Shown here: one piece after another, positions 814 to 11,741 of the stretch
How the letters are laid out: each line of letters starts with the position of its first letter
How positions within the stretch are numbered: the stretch's first letter is position 1
Notes under the pieces: generated by a model
What the model saw: only the letters and a program-made list of their open reading frames with translations
What the model was told of the DNA's origin: nothing
The model's database searches: none
IMG/VR virus record: IMGVR_UViG_3300044990_001810
Span: 1-23,051 of that record
Length of the DNA: 23,051 nucleotides
Source: a virus
Reading direction: 5' to 3' (one strand)
Translations under genes and position numbers: made by a program

Positions 814-1485
814 ATGGTTGCCAATCTGAAAGGTGATTATTCCAAATATCCTGAATCAGTAAGGGATATCGCTCCGTTGATAGCTGGCGAAATATGTATG
901 TTACGAAGAGCATGGGTTGTCTATGCAAGGCTGTTTATGGAAGATAAAACTCGAACGGAAGTCTTTTGTAAACTCATGGGTGAACTTGCATGGTATCTTC
1001 AAACCTCTCTCCAAGATCAAATGTTTCTTTCCGTCAGTCGCCTTACTGATCATGACACTCATCAGAAGGACAACAAATTGGAAAACCTCTCCCTAATGCG
1101 ACTTGTTGAAGGAGCTACCCAATCAGGAGATGACACATTTACGGCTGACGTAGATAAAGAAATCACCGCTATTCGGAAAGAAGCAAAGGACATTCGTTTG
1201 CATCGCCACAAGCGGATTGCCCACTTTGACCTCAATGTTTGTAGCTCTAACGAAACTTTACCCACTGTGACCTTCTCACAATTGAAGGGTATGATTGACC
1301 GAATAGAGGCATTCTTCAATCGTTTCAACAAACGGTATCAGAATAGAGAAGTCCTGTTTTCCATTATGACGGCGGATGATGTTACTGGCGGCTTTGAGAC
1401 AATAGTCGCGAAAGCCTTAATGTATGATGGACTTGAAAACGAGGGAGTAGTGGCAAAGTATAAGTGGAGAGATGCCATCATATAA
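814..1485 (+). CDS. AbiU2-like HEPN-domain protein
   Basis: A 223-aa mostly helical protein. Residues 131-137 read RHKRIAH, which fits the R-X(4-6)-H catalytic motif of HEPN ribonucleases. The preceding SRLTDHD at 75-81 and the later FSQLKGMIDRIEAF helix resemble the AbiU2 group, named after a lactococcal abortive-infection gene. HEPN proteins of this kind are usually RNases in defence or toxin-antitoxin systems. The start has a good AAGGGGA site just upstream. No antitoxin-like partner (MNT nucleotidyltransferase or small HTH) is adjacent, and the only neighbour is the divergent serine recombinase. Family assignment is by motif memory, and the RNase role is inferred. Confidence 0.62.
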   Translation: MVANLKGDYSKYPESVRDIAPLIAGEICMLRRAWVVYARLFMEDKTRTEVFCKLMGELAWYLQTSLQDQMFLSVSRLTDHDTHQKDNKLENLSLMRLVEGATQSGDDTFTADVDKEITAIRKEAKDIRLHRHKRIAHFDLNVCSSNETLPTVTFSQLKGMIDRIEAFFNRFNKRYQNREVLFSIMTADDVTGGFETIVAKALMYDGLENEGVVAKYKWRDAII

Positions 1486-1971: not shown

Positions 1972-2217
1972 CTATGCGAGGTCAACGGATTCATGCGTCC
2001 CATAAAGCAGCCAGCCCAGGGGCGTCTTGAGAACGTCAGACAACGCCTTCATCTCGAAACCATCCGGCGTCTCAAGATCCTTTTCGTAGTCGGAAAGATG
2101 CGACAAGGGTATTCCAACCAGGGAGGCGACTTGCCGCCGCGTCAACCTTGAAATCTTTATCGAATACGTGAGACGCTTCCCAAGCGTGCTCAGGTCTACT
2201 TTTTGTTCATCGAGCAT
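1972..2217 (-). CDS. Small XRE-family regulator downstream of integrase
   Basis: An 81-aa protein that is essentially one helix-turn-helix domain: residues about 25-65 read as an HTH (RRQVASLVGIPLSHLSDYEKD) followed by helices ending in PLGWLLYG, typical of Cro/CI-like proteins. AAGGAGG lies just before the ATG, and the gene starts inside the last 22 bp of the integrase gene, so the two are probably translated together. Lying between integrase and attachment site, it may control integration or excision or act as an excisionase-like factor. It is too small to contain a cleavage or oligomerisation domain. The HTH call is secure and the role is not. Confidence 0.82.
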   Translation of the reverse strand: MLDEQKVDLSTLGKRLTYSIKISRLTRRQVASLVGIPLSHLSDYEKDLETPDGFEMKALSDVLKTPLGWLLYGTHESVDLA

Positions 2218-3467
2218 GGATCCTCCTTGACCGGTACTATGTCAAAAAACTTCTTGCCGTCGCCCGGGTGGACGAGGCCGCGGTAGTGACGGAAGAAGAT
2301 GTCGGTGCCGCGGTGGCCCATCTCACTGGCAACCAGGGCGGCGTCGTGTGTCAATTCGTATGCGTAGGATGCGTAGCTGTGGCGCATGCAGTCCATCGGC
2401 CAGGCCAGGATATTGGAGGCGGCGTCTTCGAGCTCACGGCTCTGGGCGCACAGCTTGCGGATGGCCGCATACAGATGCTTCGCGGAGAGCGGAGTGATGG
2501 GGTTTGCCGGCGGATAGGCATCGAGCCAGGCTCGGAGGTTTTCACGGACCGGCACCGTGCGATGATCCGATGTCTTGGCAACGCTGCCGTCGATCACGAT
2601 CCACTCTTTACCGATCCGCGCCGGATCGAGGCGGGCCAGCTCGGCCGGACGGATGCCGGCGAAGAGCCCCAGCGCGAGATAGGGAACCAGCGCCGGGCGT
2701 TTCTCCTTGGCCAGCGTCATGAGCGCAGCCGTCTGCGCCACAGTCAGGATGCCGCGGCCGGGCTCGGCGGCGCGGGACCTGGGAACCAGGAGCGCGGGAT
2801 TGCCGGAGGCCATGCCTTCGCGCATCGCCCAGCGGAAGAAGGTGGCCAGGTGGCGTATGGAATTGTTGCGAGTGATTCCGGTGCGGGTGCCGATCAGCTG
2901 GTTGACATGGTGCGACTTGATTGAGGAGACCGGGGCGTCTTCGCCGCAAACCGCTCCTAGACGCGTCAGGACGTGCCGGTATCCGCGCACGGTCAAAGGC
3001 TTCGCCCCGTGCCTTCTCTCCTCAAGGAAGAGCCTTCTTGCTTCTTTTAGCGGTATCCTGGGGACAGCCATCTCTTTCGCGAGGGCTTTGGCGGCCTGGA
3101 GCAGCGTCGCGCCCGGGGGCAGCACGGCCAGCGCATCCTGAGCATCGAGCATCTGGGCGCGGGTCATAGGCGGCCTCGAGAACTTCATGGCGGTGTCCTG
3201 GGCGTCGATCCAGGCGCGGGCTGACGCTTCGTCAGGCATCCGGGCGCGCGTACGGCCGTATGCCTTGCAGATCACGCAGTCATAGCCACGGCCGTTAGCC
3301 GCGGGCGAATAGCGGCCCGGACCGTAGGGGATGCTGCGCCCCCTGCGCTTCACGGGTTTCGGAGGAACAGGCGCGGAAAACTTCAAGCCCGGCCCCCTGC
3401 GCCTCGGGGTCAGCTTCATAATGGGGCCCGCAGGGCCAGCCATGTATGGTACAGGGTCTTCACTCAT
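2196..3467 (-). CDS. int: Tyrosine-type site-specific integrase
   Basis: A 423-aa phage integrase that should recombine the phage site with the tRNA gene at 1866-1911. With the start at 3467, catalytic residues are Arg273 (in FAGIRPAEL), Lys298, Arg362 (in CMRHSYASY), His385 (in MGHRG) and the Tyr395 nucleophile (in FFRHYRG). The first residue of the H-x-x-R box appears to be Asp359, not His. A SAM-like core-binding domain covers about 145-230. The extended N-terminus is rich in Pro and Arg and includes a CVIC pair that may form a small arm-binding domain. An upstream in-frame extension to 3578 exists but overlaps the lipoprotein gene, and ATG 3467 sits two bases beyond that gene's stop, which suggests coupling. 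The Shine-Dalgarno is weak. Confidence 0.95.
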   Translation of the reverse strand: MSEDPVPYMAGPAGPIMKLTPRRRGPGLKFSAPVPPKPVKRRGRSIPYGPGRYSPAANGRGYDCVICKAYGRTRARMPDEASARAWIDAQDTAMKFSRPPMTRAQMLDAQDALAVLPPGATLLQAAKALAKEMAVPRIPLKEARRLFLEERRHGAKPLTVRGYRHVLTRLGAVCGEDAPVSSIKSHHVNQLIGTRTGITRNNSIRHLATFFRWAMREGMASGNPALLVPRSRAAEPGRGILTVAQTAALMTLAKEKRPALVPYLALGLFAGIRPAELARLDPARIGKEWIVIDGSVAKTSDHRTVPVRENLRAWLDAYPPANPITPLSAKHLYAAIRKLCAQSRELEDAASNILAWPMDCMRHSYASYAYELTHDAALVASEMGHRGTDIFFRHYRGLVHPGDGKKFFDIVPVKEDPCSMNKK

Positions 3468-3469
3468 AG

Positions 3470-3961
3470 CTACTTGCTTTCCCTTAACTTGCGGCCAGCA
3501 AAACTTGGATTCATAAAAACTAGAGCGGTCACATAGGGTCTGCGATCCAGCGTTAACTCTCCACCACAATAATTCCAAGATGCTATATTTTCTTCTTTGA
3601 CTAAAGGTTTCCCAAGCAACTTACTCATGCGTTTTACTGCCAGCTCGAATTGTCCGACATACGTTGTTGTTTCAGCAGAAATCAAAAGAACACCAACGCG
3701 TTCGCTAACGTTCAAATTACATGTTTCAAATTTAATACCTCCGAAATTCTCCGTGCACCGCATCTTATACATTTCAAAAGGACGGTTTTTAAGAAAGTTA
3801 TTATCTGCAACGCTCAATATATTTGTATTGGTATCCTTTATCTGCTCGTTCAACATGTAACCGAGACACGATAAAGGCGGCACATATGAATCATCACTAC
3901 AGGAAACCATAAAAACCGAAGCAACGACTACAGCTAATAGAAAACCAAACCGGCCAATCAT
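3470..3961 (-). CDS. Prophage lipoprotein, possible lysogenic-conversion factor
   Basis: A 163-aa protein with a signal peptide: MIGRF, a hydrophobic stretch to residue 20, then a lipobox MVSC with Cys21 as the lipidated residue. The mature part has five further cysteines and no family that I recognise. AGGGGG precedes the ATG. The gene lies between the repressor/membrane-peptide genes and the integrase in the minus-strand lysogeny operon, so it is likely made in the lysogen. It is clearly more AT-rich than the integrase, which suggests separate acquisition. Small lipoproteins in this position in other temperate phages can block superinfection or alter the cell surface. That role here is inference. 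Confidence 0.8.
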   Translation of the reverse strand: MIGRFGFLLAVVVASVFMVSCSDDSYVPPLSCLGYMLNEQIKDTNTNILSVADNNFLKNRPFEMYKMRCTENFGGIKFETCNLNVSERVGVLLISAETTTYVGQFELAVKRMSKLLGKPLVKEENIASWNYCGGELTLDRRPYVTALVFMNPSFAGRKLRESK

Positions 3962-4122: not shown

Positions 4123-4509
4123 TCAGCTCGCAGTTTTTGTAACAATGCGCCCACCAGTTTTGGCAGGAGCGGCAACCGAGGCTCGCCCCTCAGCAAGTTG
4201 CGCGACCAGTTGCGCGATGGTTGTTTGCTGGCTCATTGCTAAGTCACGCCAGTAGGTAACCGACTCGTCCGCTTGTTTGACCTTAGCAGCAGCTAGCGGC
4301 ACTGACGCCGCGTCAGTAAGACCAAGCAGCCAATCGGCTGAAGCCCCAGTTGCTTTGCAAATTTCAACCACAGCATCACCAGTTGGTGTTCTTTGCTCTT
4401 TAACATATCTGTCCAAAGAAGCCTGTTTAATGCCCCAGGAACGGGCGCATTCAGCAATACTCTTTCCATTGCACAACGACAGCAACCTAGAAGCAAAAAC
4501 TTTTTTCAT
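4123..4509 (-). CDS. Phage repressor (CI-like, HTH without protease domain)
   Basis: A 128-aa protein with an N-terminal helix-turn-helix at about residues 15-60 (SIAECARSWGIKQASLDRYVKE, then TGASADWLLGL). The tail of about 70 residues is helical and could serve for oligomerisation. There is no LexA-like S24 peptidase domain, so release of repression cannot occur through RecA-stimulated self-cleavage and would need another signal or an antirepressor. The start at 4509 was chosen because GGAG lies nine bases upstream; a longer reading frame would extend into the operator region. It is divergent from the early operon, the normal position for the master repressor, and heads the lysogeny operon. 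Confidence 0.8.
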   Translation of the reverse strand: MKKVFASRLLSLCNGKSIAECARSWGIKQASLDRYVKEQRTPTGDAVVEICKATGASADWLLGLTDAASVPLAAAKVKQADESVTYWRDLAMSQQTTIAQLVAQLAEGRASVAAPAKTGGRIVTKTAS

Positions 4510-4520
4510 AAAAATAATCT

Positions 4521-4555
4521 CCAATTGGTGTTGACACAGTACTCCAGATGGTGTA
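4521..4555. promoter_or_regulatory. Operator-like repeats CCANNTGG
   Basis: Two related sites, CCAATTGGTGTT (4521-4532) and CCAGATGGTGTA (4544-4555), each contain the dyad CCANNTGG. The first lies against the -35 box and the repressor's Shine-Dalgarno, and the second covers the spacer and the edge of the -10 box. They are 23 bp apart, about two helical turns. A third copy, CCAGTTGGTGTT, lies inside the repressor gene at 4379-4390. The arrangement fits binding by the 4123-4509 protein. Confidence 0.55.
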
Positions 4556-4559
4556 TAGT
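4531..4559 (+). promoter_or_regulatory. Main rightward early promoter
   Basis: TTGACA at 4531-4536 and TATAGT at 4554-4559 with a 17-bp spacer make a near-perfect sigma-70 promoter. It reads into the gene at 4641 after a leader of about 75 bases and should drive the early operon. A weaker candidate for the repressor on the minus strand (TTGTTT, 18 bp, TATACA) overlaps it, which would make the two promoters compete. Confidence 0.85.
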
Positions 4560-4640
4560 TGCCGCCATCAAACCAAAACAAGCAGGTTCAAGCGTAAATC
4601 AAACGGGCGAGCTTGTAAAGAAAAAGGAAACAGGAACAAC

Positions 4641-5069
4641 ATGAAAAAGTTAACAGCAGTCAAAGCGACCAACCAGGACAACCAGATTATCAATGCCGCC
4701 GTGGATGCGATCCGCAGCGTGCTGGAGCGTTTCCACGAGGCCAACAAGACTATCGGCTTCGCGCCGCGCGCCATGCTCCAGGTGAGCGTCATCGACTCGC
4801 GGTGCACGCTGACACTCGAAGGCAGCACGCGCTCACCGGCGAACGGACACACTATCGATGAGGCAATGGAATTCCTCTGCTCGAATCCGGATGCCGAGTT
4901 CCTGCGGGGCCGCGCAAAGTTGCTCATGGACAAGGCGCAGGAGATTCTCGCAGAGGCTTACAAGCTGGAAGGAATCGAGCCGCAATACGCCGTTGCTCAG
5001 GCCGTGGGCACTGTAGAGGCCGCTAAGGCAGCCGCAGACGAAACCGGGACGGAAGGCGGTGCTGAATGA
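4641..5069 (+). CDS. Uncharacterised early protein
   Basis: A 142-aa protein, the first gene of the rightward operon. It begins MKKLTAVKATNQDNQ and is predicted helical at both ends, with a central beta-like stretch (MLQVSVIDSRCTLTLEG) and an Ala/Glu-rich C-terminus. AGGAA and AGGA stretches precede the ATG. Its stop overlaps the next start in an ATGA junction, so the two genes are probably coupled. No family is recognised. First genes of such operons often encode regulators or recombination accessory proteins, but nothing in the sequence picks one. Confidence 0.72.
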   Translation: MKKLTAVKATNQDNQIINAAVDAIRSVLERFHEANKTIGFAPRAMLQVSVIDSRCTLTLEGSTRSPANGHTIDEAMEFLCSNPDAEFLRGRAKLLMDKAQEILAEAYKLEGIEPQYAVAQAVGTVEAAKAAADETGTEGGAE

Positions 5070-6907: not shown

Positions 6908-7248
6908 GACAGACAAACAACCTCGTCCAGGGGCTGGAGCCCCTGCTGACGGTGGACGAAGTGGCCGCGCTGATGAAGAAACCGAAGCGTTACGTCTCCG
7001 GGCTCATCAAGCGCCGCCAGCTCGCGGGCATCAAATTCGGGGGCAACTCCTGGCGGGTGGATCCCGAAGAGTGGCGGCGGTTCAAGACCGCCGCGGCGAC
7101 GGCGGGCGGGGTGGACGGGTTCCGCCACGCGCGGGCGTCGGGCGGAATACGCAAAGGCATGCTGGGCTTCAAACCTAAAAACCAAAACCAAAACGAAAGG
7201 ACCATGAAGAATGAACCGCAAGGCAGCTACCCAGAAGGCAGTGAATAA
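6895..7248 (+). CDS. Helix-turn-helix (excisionase/MerR-type) protein
   Basis: A 117-aa protein with a winged helix of the excisionase/HTH_17 type at about residues 16-60: LLTVDEVAALMKKPKRYVSGLIKRRQLAGIKFGGNSWRVDPEEW. This fold bends DNA in phage excisionases and also serves in plasmid and phage regulators. The C-terminus (GGVDGFRHARASGG, then Lys/Asn/Gln-rich) is extended and basic. The start at 6895 follows AGGAAGGGA. It is far from the integrase but directly upstream of, and overlapping by 38 bp, the ParB-like gene, so replication or partition control is as likely as excision. Confidence 0.75.
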   Translation: MEALRQTNNLVQGLEPLLTVDEVAALMKKPKRYVSGLIKRRQLAGIKFGGNSWRVDPEEWRRFKTAAATAGGVDGFRHARASGGIRKGMLGFKPKNQNQNERTMKNEPQGSYPEGSE

Positions 7249-8809
7249 ACCCGCAGCAGCGAAAGCCGCCGCGGCATCCAAGAAAATACCGCCGGTCAGC
7301 GTCGAAGACGCGCCGAAGAAACGCGGACGGCCCGCGAAGGCCCCCGCCCTGGTCCTTGAAAAAGCCACCGCGCCCAAGGCCGGACCCGCAGCCATGCCGC
7401 TCACCGGCACGGCCGTCATCATGGTGCCCGTCGACAGCATCATGCCGTCCCCCTTCCAGAAGCGCGGCAAGGAGACGGAAGCCGACCTGTCCGGACTCGC
7501 GGACTCGATCAAGGCCAACGGCATCCTGCAGCCGCTGACCGTGCGACCCGCCGGGGATGACGCGCCGTCAGGGATCAAACACGAACTGGTCTTCGGACAC
7601 CGCCGCCTCGCGGCCGCCAAGATCGCCGGGCTCAAGCACGTGCCCTGCATCCTGCGCACCATGGAGGACGACCGCGCGCAGTTTGCCCACATCATCGAAA
7701 ATTTGCAGCGCAAGGACCTGTCACCCATCGACGAAGCGGACGGCGTCAACGCGCTCACGCAGATGGAGGGCCAGACCGCGCCGCAGATCGCCAAGGCGCT
7801 TGGAGTCTCCGAACGCTGGGTGTTCCGGCGGCGCAAGCTCGCGGCCATCATCCCCGAGTGGCGCAAGATCCTCCTGGAGACAAAAGCCGGACAGCTCTTC
7901 TGCGAACGCCTGGCCGCATGTCCCGCGCCCCTGCAGAAAGTCCTGCTCAAGTCCGCACTGACGAAAGATCCGGACGCGGACAAGATCGGCGGCACGCTCT
8001 ACGAAGCCGGCGCGCGCGACATCAAGGAGATGCCCTGGTCAAAGAAACACAGCCACTGGTGCTTCGCATGCCCCAGCATCGTGGACACGGTCAAAGACGC
8101 TGACGTGGATCTCGGCCAGACCTACCGGCTCAACGGCTGCAAGTTCTGCGGCGATCCCGCCTGCCGCGCGAAGAAGGAAAAGGACTGGATCAAGGAGCAG
8201 ACCGAACACTTCGAACGCGTCCACAAGAACACTGCATTCTCTAAACCGCCTACGCTGGTCAAGCGCGACTATGACGCCGGATGGGACCGCAAAGACGCGC
8301 CATCCACAAAGTACTGCGAACCCTTCATGCTCACCGAGGGGCAGGAAGCCGGCAAGGTTATCTGGTGCCCGAAGCAAGGCGCGCCAACGGAGCGGCGGAA
8401 CGCTGCACCCGAACCCAAACCCGTGATACCCGGGCACAAGGAGAAGTACGCGCGGATCAAAGCCATCCACGCACTGATCGAAACAAAAGGGCTCGACGTG
8501 ATCAGCCCGCGCCGCGCGCTTGAACTGGCGCTGCTCTACACCATGGACTGGATCAGCGACAACAAAGAGCCGTCGCGCCACAGCCGGTTTCTGAAGGCGC
8601 TCAACATGCCGGACCAGGAGCTGGCCGAAACCGTATCCAAATGCGTCCGGGAGGATTTTTCTTGCTGGATTTCCGAAACACAATATACCACAACCCCCAA
8701 AGACCCCAACGACTACGAAGGAGAGGCCAACCAGCTCGCATTGACATTCGGTATCAGCGACAAAGACATCGAAAAGCAAGTGCGGGAGATGCTCGATGGC
8801 AACGATTGA
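7211..8809 (+). CDS. ParB/RepB/Spo0J-like protein with Cys cluster
   Basis: A 532-aa protein. An Ala/Lys-rich N-terminus carries an AT-hook-like KKRGRPAK at 36-43. The ParB N-terminal domain spans about 70-165, with GHRRLAAA (129-136) and ENLQRKDL (163-170), the signature boxes of CTP-dependent ParB clamps. A helix-turn-helix at 188-211 (APQIAKALGVSERWVFRRRKL) follows. Unlike chromosomal ParB it continues with Cys284, Cys287, Cys310, Cys313 and Cys318, a likely zinc-binding site, and a long C-terminal half of unknown fold. No ParA gene is seen in the window, so it may act in replication or transcription and not partition. It overlaps the primase-helicase gene by 14 bp. Confidence 0.85.
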   Translation: MNRKAATQKAVNKPAAAKAAAASKKIPPVSVEDAPKKRGRPAKAPALVLEKATAPKAGPAAMPLTGTAVIMVPVDSIMPSPFQKRGKETEADLSGLADSIKANGILQPLTVRPAGDDAPSGIKHELVFGHRRLAAAKIAGLKHVPCILRTMEDDRAQFAHIIENLQRKDLSPIDEADGVNALTQMEGQTAPQIAKALGVSERWVFRRRKLAAIIPEWRKILLETKAGQLFCERLAACPAPLQKVLLKSALTKDPDADKIGGTLYEAGARDIKEMPWSKKHSHWCFACPSIVDTVKDADVDLGQTYRLNGCKFCGDPACRAKKEKDWIKEQTEHFERVHKNTAFSKPPTLVKRDYDAGWDRKDAPSTKYCEPFMLTEGQEAGKVIWCPKQGAPTERRNAAPEPKPVIPGHKEKYARIKAIHALIETKGLDVISPRRALELALLYTMDWISDNKEPSRHSRFLKALNMPDQELAETVSKCVREDFSCWISETQYTTTPKDPNDYEGEANQLALTFGISDKDIEKQVREMLDGND

Positions 8810-11741
8810 TGAAGTCCTCTCAAAACTAAACAAGGCGCGCCCGCACGGCGACCGGTCATGGATGGCCTGCTGCCCGGCGCACGCCGACAAGAACCCCTCG
8901 CTCTCCGTATCGGAGGGCGAGGGCGGCAAGGTGCTCTTTCGCTGCTTCGCAGGCTGCCGCACCGAGGACGTGGTCTCCGCCCTGGGCTACCGGATGTCCG
9001 ACCTCATGGGCGAGAGCAAGGCCGCGCCGTCCGGATCACGCGCCCCTGCCCGCGCACCGGCGCCCCAGGCCGCGGCCCCGGCCGAGAAGAAGAAAGCCCG
9101 GCCGCCCTTCAGCCTGGCGGGCCTCAAGCCAGGCCACATCTGGAAACTTCACAAGCGCGACTACGCCTTCGTCGAATGGTATGACTACCAGGCCGCCGAC
9201 AAGTCGATCCTCTTCCGCAAGATGCGCTTCAAGTCCGTCGAGGACAGGGCGAAGACCTTCATCCAGTGCGTGCCCACGGAGGACGGGCTCTGGATGTTCG
9301 GCCGCGAGAGCCACGGCGTCAAGGAAGTCCCCTTCAATCTTCCGGAGGTGATCCGGGCCGCACAGGAGGGCGACGTCCTGGTGATCCTCGAGGGCGAGCA
9401 GGATGTCAACACGGCGAAGCGCATGGGCTTCGCTGCCACCTGCAACGCGGACGGGGCGGGCCACTGGCGGCCGGAGTTCGCCGACTTCATGATCGGCTGC
9501 TCCCACGTCGTCGTGATCGCGGACAACGACCCCGACGAAGCAGGGGCCAAGGCACTCAACCCGGCCGCGAAGGAGTGGTGGCAGGGCCAGCGGCACGCCA
9601 CGGACATCGCCGACTCCCTGGCCGCGCGCGGGATCCGGCACACCGTGCTCACGCTGCCGCCCGCAGAGGGCTTCCACGTCAAGGACACCACTGAATGGGC
9701 CGCCGTCGCCGGCACCGAGGAGGACTACGCGTCCGGCCGCTACCGCGCCCTGCTCACCGAGATCTTCGCAGACGCCAAGCCCTGGCCCTCAGACCTATAC
9801 CGCCGTCCGTTACGGGAGGAGCCTTCAGCCTCAAAGCGGGTCAAACCCAAAGGCAAGGACGCGGCACAGGACGGACTCCAGCCCCAGCCAAGCGGCGCGC
9901 TAATAAAAGATGCCGCCGGAGGCATGCCGACTCCTCCCCTCTCCGGAAATTCCGTCTCTCTCTCCCCTTCCACCCCTCACATGGAAGGCGTAAAAAATGT
10001 TGGTGGAAACGGGGGCGCGGACGATGAAGAGTGCTCTGTTTCCTACCTCCGGAGCCGCCTGATCGAGGCGATGACCGACAAGGACGCGTCCGGGCTCCAG
10101 AAGAAGCGGCTTATGTGCAGCGCGGTGTGCGAGTGGCTCGGCAAGCGCGGCAAGTTCTTCTACGACCTTGAGGACAAGGGCCACGGCACCGCGATGTGGT
10201 TCGACGCCGTGGAGAAGAAGCTGCACCGGATCAAGCAGGACTATTTCCAGTCATGGCTCTCGAGGGCGACCGCCTTCTCGCGCGAGTTCAAGGACTACAA
10301 GATGTTCATCTCGGCGGTCCAGGATGAATCCCTCATCGGCGAGGCCACGCAGGGCATACGGCCCAAGCGCTACTGGCACCGCGAGGGCGACCGCATCTAC
10401 CTTTCAAACGGCGAAGGCCGCATGGCGCGGATCACGGCCGACGACGTCACGATGGTCGACAACGGGACGGACGGCATCGTCTTCGAGCAGGGCTTCATCC
10501 TGACCCCGTGGGAGCTGCTCCCGGAAGCGGAAGCCCGCGACCCTTTCGAGTCATGCGGCGTGTTCAGCGGAATCTCCACGGTCGACGGGCGCGGCCTCAT
10601 GCTTGTGCGCCTCTGGTTCAGCGGCATGTTCGGCGTGACGGGCTGGAAACCTTTGCTCGTGCTGTCCGGCGACGTCGGCAGCGGAAAGACCCGCGTCGCG
10701 GTGGCCATGTTCCAGCTCCTGGGCGTCATCCAGCGCGTCACGGCCATCGACGCCATCGGCAACGTCAAGGACTTCTGGGCGAGCGTGGACAAGGGCGGCC
10801 TTTTCTGTCTGGACAACGCCGACCATCATATCACCTGGCTGCCGGACGCGCTTTCCGTGATCTCCACGGGCGGCACGTTCGAGAAGAAGAAGCTTTACAC
10901 GGACACCGAGACGGTCACCCAGGAGGCCCGCTGCTGGGCCGTGGTGACATCGGCCAACCCCTCTTTCGCCGCTGACGCGGGGCTCTCTGACCGCCTCATC
11001 ACGGTCAACCTGCAACGCGTCGAACGAGACACGGCCGAGAGCGAGCTGACGCACGAGATAGAGGCCAACCGGTTCGCGGCCATGACCTGGCTTTGCACGG
11101 TCATGCGCAAGGCGCTCGCCGACAAGGAGCCGGTCCCCAAGGGAATGAACCGACGCCACCCCGATTGGTCTAACTGGGTCTATAGAATCGGCAAGGCGGC
11201 AGGGAAAGCCGATGAGGCCGAGCGTGCGATCCGGGAGAACGAAGGCTTCAAAGCGCTCTTCTCGGTGTCAAATGACAGCTTCGGCAAGTTCGTCCTGGCC
11301 GCCATGAAGCAGCAGAAAGGCGAGTTCACGGGCTCCGCCGACGACCTTTCGAAGCTTTTATCTGAAAAATGTGAGGGGTTCTCTTCGGACATGTGGACAA
11401 CTGCGAAGATTGGCAAGGCGATGTCGCGCCTCTCGGTATCGCTCAAGAGCCTGTTCAAGTTTGAAAAGCTAAACCATTCAGGCCGAGCCGTTTACAAGTT
11501 GCATCCTTACGCCTCCCCTCTCGATGATTTACCCACAATCGAACAGCCTTTGTTGGGTGTTGTTGGGGATGTGGGGGTAAATCCGATAAAGTCCCATGAT
11601 AATAGTAATTTACACGACTTTTATGTTTTTAACCCCCACATCCCTAACAACCCCCCACATAACAGATTAGAAGGAGAGGGAGAGAGAATAGAAAGCCCGT
11701 CCGACCCGGACGGGGAATTGAATGAATGGGAGGTGCTGTGA
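8796..11741 (+). CDS. Primase-helicase fusion (CHC2 zinc finger, TOPRIM, AAA+ ATPase)
   Basis: A 981-aa replication protein that should prime and unwind DNA at the phage fork. A CHC2-type zinc finger holds Cys26, His29, Cys50 and Cys54. A TOPRIM domain at about 190-290 has the catalytic Glu199 (VILEGEQD) and the DxD pair Asp243/Asp245 (IADNDPD). A low-complexity linker at about 335-412 joins it to a C-terminal ATPase: Walker A GDVGSGKT at 625-632, Walker B LFCLDNAD at 669-676, and sensor/arginine-finger region SANPSFAADAGLSDRL at 719-734. The last 80 residues are AT-richer in DNA and cover the stem-loop at 11551-11659. It lies between the ParB-like gene and small accessory genes. Confidence 0.9.
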   Translation: MATIDEVLSKLNKARPHGDRSWMACCPAHADKNPSLSVSEGEGGKVLFRCFAGCRTEDVVSALGYRMSDLMGESKAAPSGSRAPARAPAPQAAAPAEKKKARPPFSLAGLKPGHIWKLHKRDYAFVEWYDYQAADKSILFRKMRFKSVEDRAKTFIQCVPTEDGLWMFGRESHGVKEVPFNLPEVIRAAQEGDVLVILEGEQDVNTAKRMGFAATCNADGAGHWRPEFADFMIGCSHVVVIADNDPDEAGAKALNPAAKEWWQGQRHATDIADSLAARGIRHTVLTLPPAEGFHVKDTTEWAAVAGTEEDYASGRYRALLTEIFADAKPWPSDLYRRPLREEPSASKRVKPKGKDAAQDGLQPQPSGALIKDAAGGMPTPPLSGNSVSLSPSTPHMEGVKNVGGNGGADDEECSVSYLRSRLIEAMTDKDASGLQKKRLMCSAVCEWLGKRGKFFYDLEDKGHGTAMWFDAVEKKLHRIKQDYFQSWLSRATAFSREFKDYKMFISAVQDESLIGEATQGIRPKRYWHREGDRIYLSNGEGRMARITADDVTMVDNGTDGIVFEQGFILTPWELLPEAEARDPFESCGVFSGISTVDGRGLMLVRLWFSGMFGVTGWKPLLVLSGDVGSGKTRVAVAMFQLLGVIQRVTAIDAIGNVKDFWASVDKGGLFCLDNADHHITWLPDALSVISTGGTFEKKKLYTDTETVTQEARCWAVVTSANPSFAADAGLSDRLITVNLQRVERDTAESELTHEIEANRFAAMTWLCTVMRKALADKEPVPKGMNRRHPDWSNWVYRIGKAAGKADEAERAIRENEGFKALFSVSNDSFGKFVLAAMKQQKGEFTGSADDLSKLLSEKCEGFSSDMWTTAKIGKAMSRLSVSLKSLFKFEKLNHSGRAVYKLHPYASPLDDLPTIEQPLLGVVGDVGVNPIKSHDNSNLHDFYVFNPHIPNNPPHNRLEGEGERIESPSDPDGELNEWEVL
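11551..11659. repeat. Long inverted repeat in primase-helicase 3' end
   Basis: A 20-base arm at 11559-11578 (GTTGTTGGGGATGTGGGGGT) is matched in inverted orientation at 11632-11651, with one difference that still allows G-U pairing. Further pairs extend the stem outward to about 11551 and 11659. The 53-base loop is AT-rich. The structure lies inside coding sequence, so it imposes Gly/Val-rich and Pro/Asn-rich residues on the protein. Confidence 0.8.

Follow-up and report, generated by a model that had tools for sequence, protein, structure and literature searches.

A putative replication origin with opposed iterons in the 3′ end of a phage primase-helicase gene

The primase-helicase gene and its neighbours

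The DNA analysed here, called the window in the following, is a stretch of 23,051 nt from a virus. It harbours the gene of a primase-helicase (Table 1). The protein starts with a DnaG zinc ribbon (residues 5-56), which is followed by a toprim-like region and an AAA+ helicase of the SF3/Rep type with the motifs LSGDVGSGKT (Walker A), LDN and TSANP. No Pfam model covers the helicase half at the default threshold. The AlphaFold model of residues 560-981 has a mean pLDDT of 64. It comprises the AAA+ region, a confidently predicted C-terminal winged helix (about residues 830-905) and a disordered tail (907-981). The best folds retrieved by Foldseek were the NrS-1 primase-helicase CTR, SCCmec Cch, SaPI5 PriRep1 with dsDNA, AAV Rep40 and vaccinia D5; with TM-scores of about 0.35, the likeness is one of fold class and does not imply a close relation.

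A ParB-like protein is encoded just upstream (7211-8809). At 814-1485 (+ strand), near a weak phage-integrase match (2196-3578, - strand), lies the gene of a protein matching HEPN_AbiU2 (Pfam, E = 6e-16), possibly an abortive-infection gene at the end of the phage. PADLOC returned no match for this gene.

Table 1. Features of the primase-helicase gene and of the proposed origin (positions in the window)
Feature	Position	Strand	Evidence and remarks
Primase-helicase gene, 981 aa	8796..11741	+	Pfam Zn_ribbon_DnaG 3e-6; PHROG DNA primase 1.8e-27; AlphaFold and Foldseek
Dyad as a whole, proposed core of the replication origin (AT-rich core between opposed arrays of iterons)	11551..11659	.	In frame in the gene tail; position and span kept in 21 homologues
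Left array, three iterons: TGTTGGGTG (11551), TGTTGGGGA (11561), TGTGGGGGT (11570)	11551..11578	+	Motif scan; family-wide lag-9 autocorrelation
AT-rich core, 53 bp, 74% AT, containing AAAGTC and GACTTT as an inner inverted pair; putative site of unwinding	11579..11631	.	
Right array, three iterons: TGTGGGGGG (from 11659), TGTTAGGGA (11649), TGTGGGGGT (11640)	11632..11659	-	Motif scan
Gene end, acidic tail ...GELNEWEVL	11660..11738	+	Ribosome-binding site (GGGAGG) for the following gene contained in the last codons

An inverted repeat made of 9-bp words

The strongest inverted repeat that a repeat search detected in the window is a dyad of 109 bp. It lies in frame within the 981-codon gene, its 3′ edge being 82 nt away from the end of the stop codon, and is translated as LLGVVGDVGV...NPHIPNNPPH near the end of the protein. 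The encoded residues belong to the predicted disordered tail behind the winged helix, which fits the low coding constraint that the first-pass annotation had assumed for the C-terminus. The arms (11551-11590 and 11620-11659) are 80% complementary across 40 nt. In their central part (11559-11578 versus 11632-11651), 19 of 20 bases are paired, and the single exception is a G.T. Against the high AT content of the core, the surrounding gene has 37% AT. All parts of the stem-loop noticed at first inspection, i.e., the 20-base arm with one wobble, the outer pairs and the AT-rich loop of 53 bases, were confirmed.

An inverted repeat of 12 bases alone is not rare; it was present in 23 of 200 triplet-shuffled windows. 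The dyad as a whole, gaps being allowed, scores 49, whereas the best of 20 shuffles of the gene tail reached 22. These shuffles, together with the conservation described below, rule out a chance origin. The cumulative GC skew, named as a check in the first-pass annotation, does not turn at 11.6 kb. This speaks against an origin here but carries little weight in a short mosaic window.

The arms have a substructure. Each contains three copies of a 9-bp word resembling TGTTGGGG, spaced by 10 and then by 9 on either side, and six of the seven words of this type found by a motif scan of the 23 kb lie in the dyad. The pattern TTGTTGGGGATGTNGGGG had 11 matches in viral contigs, only one of them in a relative (L014, the contig of L003), and therefore is not a general repeat. 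Across the family the arms display a single period of 9 bp: in an autocorrelation of hand-trimmed arms, with the other lags as control, lag 9 reached z = 15.6 and the runner-up, lag 8, z = 2.4. With the cores aligned in register by hand, the iterons of one element agreed to 0.90 within an arm, to 0.92 across the mirror and to 0.89 crosswise; between elements the agreement was 0.58. Two sets of short repeats around an AT-rich region are also the hallmark of origins of the PICI/SaPI type.

Conservation among relatives

The close relatives L003 (88% protein identity) and L004/L005 (69%) retain the dyad; in L004, each of the four good copies of the word reads TGTTAGGG. At about 30% protein identity, the distant relatives L020-L026 and L109-L129 have a dyad at the same place. 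Their iteron words are GGTGGGTT/GGTGGATT, AGTGGGT or TGAAGGATG. The layout is kept and the letters change together (TGTTAGGG, GGTGGGTT, TGAAGGATG, GCGGTGAT, TGCGGCTT and others). In L119 the dyad is perfect, with 32 of 32 pairs. All 21 non-redundant homologues contain a dyad near the gene end, with scores of 30-64 that in each case exceeded those of its own 20 shuffles. The span is mostly 102-109 bp (91 in L004); values of 131 and 125 are due to the alignment running past the arrays. Many homologues also retain the core sequence AAAGTCC ... GACTTT/GTTTT. The relic of a small element, which had been considered at first, is an unlikely explanation for a layout that is maintained although its letters vary in concert.

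The trait was also found out of sample. A draw of 388 genomes from the phylum of G001 yielded 10 new loci, besides two that nearly duplicated loci already included. In eight of the 10, the best dyad of the locus lies close to the gene end, again with new words such as GCGGTGAT, GGTGGCTT, GGTGGGAG and TGCGGCTT; of the remainder, one locus lacks a dyad and one has a weak one. The element can also be located beyond the gene: in L141, L142 and L145 its centre lies 15-57 nt past the stop codon. In Methylobacterium and Stanieria plasmid relatives no clear dyad was seen near rep. Nor is the trait universal in D5/DUF5906 helicases, since in a wider sample of these the best dyad was near the gene end in six of 21 cases, at least one of which (AT-rich L159) resembles an ordinary palindrome.

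At codons 921-960, the nucleotide identity with L003 (0.87) is higher than the amino-acid identity (0.78), the reverse of what is seen in the helicase core. Four-fold sites of the element are identical to those of L003 in 11 of 13 cases, an excess too small for significance. Beyond the dyad the protein ends in an acidic tip, NEWEVL in the window and in L004, HEWEVL in L003. Many distant relatives likewise have an acidic tip with a hydrophobic end. This tip may be the reason for an open reading frame that extends across the site. The tip (11700-11741 in the window, and in relatives; NEWEVL, DDMEFPL, YWDL) recalls the partner-recruiting tails of SSB or T7 gp4.

Other repeats were seen in these and in less related loci. 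The gene tails of L020-L026 and L109-L129 contain a strictly alternating ACGCGCGCGCG block (ARAR in the protein), located anywhere from 0 to 50 nt past the right array, and similar blocks occur in the cores of L029 and L083; probably they are a further DNA-level element. The small phage contigs L043-L058, which have a separate AAA_25/DnaB-like helicase gene, harbour another dyad, in which two copies of CTGAAGGTGCTCA are followed by the inverted word. In L043, for instance, it is found at 4935-5012, 27 codons before the helicase stop; it is placed as in the window, although the helicase is unrelated. By hhalign, the helicases of L029, L083 and L043 were not linked to the helicase family of the window. 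In the Methanothrix plasmid pH6Ac (L098, about 4330-4605), repeats of the TACCGCCTCC type surround in both orientations a purine-rich stretch in the tail of the replication gene, a candidate in-gene origin of an archaeal plasmid. In L031 (6490-6830), several repeats of the CTGGCTGGGT type follow a D5-type helicase gene in both orientations and form more than one dyad.

DNA site or RNA structure

An RNA switch or an mRNA structure had also been proposed for the stem-loop. A hairpin that limits the translation or the stability of the downstream genes would be in keeping with the good RNA fold (z-score -5.1 for the + strand, -3.5 for the - strand) and with the position of the dyad just ahead of the closely spaced start of the next gene, at about 11738. 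The mismatches in the dyads, however, show no preference for G.U (23 G.U versus 32 A.C), and a hairpin would not require arms built of tandem 9-bp repeats, as found here. L020, L023 and L024 have a spacing of 8 between the left repeats and of 9 between the right ones; the register of the stem is broken, yet the words are kept. In L029, L083, pFP11 and BPP-1, moreover, the element is located downstream of the gene stop. No Rfam family matches the dyad. The mRNA hairpin is therefore most improbable, and the RNA switch was rejected on the same grounds. The lack of a G.U bias and the 9-bp periodicity of the arms rather indicate a DNA site. An intrinsic terminator was rejected as well: terminator-like sites occur only on the - strand at 11695-11714, i.e., outside the dyad, and are no more frequent than expected by chance.

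A proposed origin of replication

The element is probably (at roughly 80%) an opposed-iteron replication origin in the 3′ end of the gene of its own initiator, as judged from sequence comparison, a structural model and analogy. The comparison with relatives strongly supports the early suggestion that the end of the replication gene harbours an origin, and it is the layout of the stem, not its letters, that the homologues preserve. As a kind of origin this is known; what is new is that it is placed in frame and that its iterons change in a coordinated way across a family.

The way it works may be sketched from relatives and the literature. The winged-helix domain of the primase-helicase would bind the 9-bp iterons as duplex DNA. 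Because the arrays point in opposite directions, two helicase rings would be loaded head to head. The AT-rich core between the arrays would be opened, the rings would travel outward, and the fused DnaG-type primase would start both forks, which amounts to a bidirectional start.

The initiator might instead recognise an extruded DNA hairpin or cruciform. The very high symmetry of the arms in L119 and in the window would suit this idea, as would the plasmid pRN1, where a stem mutant was rescued only by a change restoring symmetry and recognition of the stem-loop was proposed by the authors (PMC4234260). Arm pairing is broken in many homologues, however, and the agreement across the mirror hardly exceeds that within an arm. 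In pWTY27, the footprint of RepA covers both arms and spares the loop, although the authors still draw a stem-loop (PMC3583192). We thus regard recognition of an extruded structure as unlikely; it may nevertheless matter in addition to duplex binding, because of the symmetry rescue in pRN1 and the failure to find specific binding there (PMC4234260).

The ParB-like protein is a further potential ligand, and the dyad had been suspected to be its target, be it centromere-like or regulatory. Its gene indeed adjoins the primase-helicase gene in the window and in L003-L005. Yet tblastn detected ParB homologues in only seven of 26 related loci (within limited flanks), some of them downstream, and the dyad keeps to the helicase gene end irrespective of the side on which ParB is encoded. 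Its layout, too, matches that of helicase-linked origins elsewhere. A ParB target is a weaker, improbable explanation when compared with an origin used by the primase-helicase.

Comparison with known systems

The closest precedent is pRN1 of Sulfolobus. Besides its replication operon, this plasmid needs only a 100-bp stem-loop downstream of the SF3-helicase gene, which is necessary and sufficient; the helicase has a C-terminal winged helix, and the authors saw neither iterons nor specific binding (PMC4234260). When re-read, the pRN1 arms contain TGTCCA twice, 9 bp apart, with a span of 98. The window shares with pRN1 the stem-loop of about 100 bp, the long AT-rich loop and the location at the 3′ end of a gene for an SF3 helicase with a C-terminal winged helix, which is here predicted with a moderate fold match. 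The primase of pRN1, in contrast, is archaeo-eukaryotic (prim-pol), whereas here a DnaG zinc ribbon is found. A similar stem-loop was proposed 3′ of the replication gene of the Bordetella phage BIP-1 (PMC4234260). In the related BPP-1, we read TTGCCTCGT twice per side, 9 bp apart, with a span of 104, and 518 nt past the primase stop. In pRN1 and BIP-1 the element is outside the coding region of the initiator; in the window it is in frame.

Every origin of a PICI contains, 3′ of rep, an AT-rich region with a set of iterons on either side (PMC6092414). They and the SaPI origins are described as following the gene (PMC6092414, PMC7581432), whereas the dyad of the window lies inside it. Here, a 9-bp unit occurs two or three times per array, the dyad has a fixed span (about 102-109 bp), and the element resides in a phage, which has capsid and connector genes. 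An origin of the PICI/SaPI kind is expected to be bound by the C-terminal domain of the adjacent self-loading helicase and to confer replication; the domain in question would here be the predicted winged helix.

The Streptomyces plasmid pWTY27 has a 105-bp inverted repeat with 8-bp repeats (PMC3583192); we liken it to the window by this published description and the footprint. For pFP11, RepA is reported to bind its iterons, according to a citation in PMC3583192. We found dyads of 102 and 110 bp, made of GGGWCGCA words, downstream of a pFP11 gene with a related AAA+ domain (hhalign 96.8%); the likeness to the helicase of the window concerns this domain, and the gene may be that of the reported RepA. 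Both plasmids differ from the window by the non-coding location, the 8-bp unit and a separate prim-pol gene.

The "stem-loop" origins of pRN1, BPP-1/BIP-1 and pWTY27 and the "two iteron sets" of PICI might all represent one architecture: pairs of words of about 9 bp arranged head to head, with outer edges about 100-109 bp apart, and read by the C-terminal winged helix of a linked SF3/Rep helicase. Within one large lineage of phages, this architecture would have moved into the reading frame of the initiator, where it is encoded by a disordered linker, initiator and iterons changing together. We offer this unification tentatively, the odds being somewhat against it. If the dyad is indeed the origin, the origins of many uncultured phages with this primase-helicase could be located from sequence, since the site has a fixed place in a recognisable gene, and the code between initiator and iterons could be read straight from the sequence. 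Stem-loop origins of a related kind have been suggested before in some phages, from which the present case differs by its in-frame location and by the turnover of iterons throughout the family.

The in-frame location has a parallel in phage lambda. There, iterons flank the AT-rich tract on a single side, and the helicase of the host is recruited; the window, in contrast, has symmetric opposed arrays, and the proposed initiator itself is the helicase. Common to both is an iteron origin with an AT-rich region in frame within the initiator gene, which is gene O in lambda (PMC7466680).
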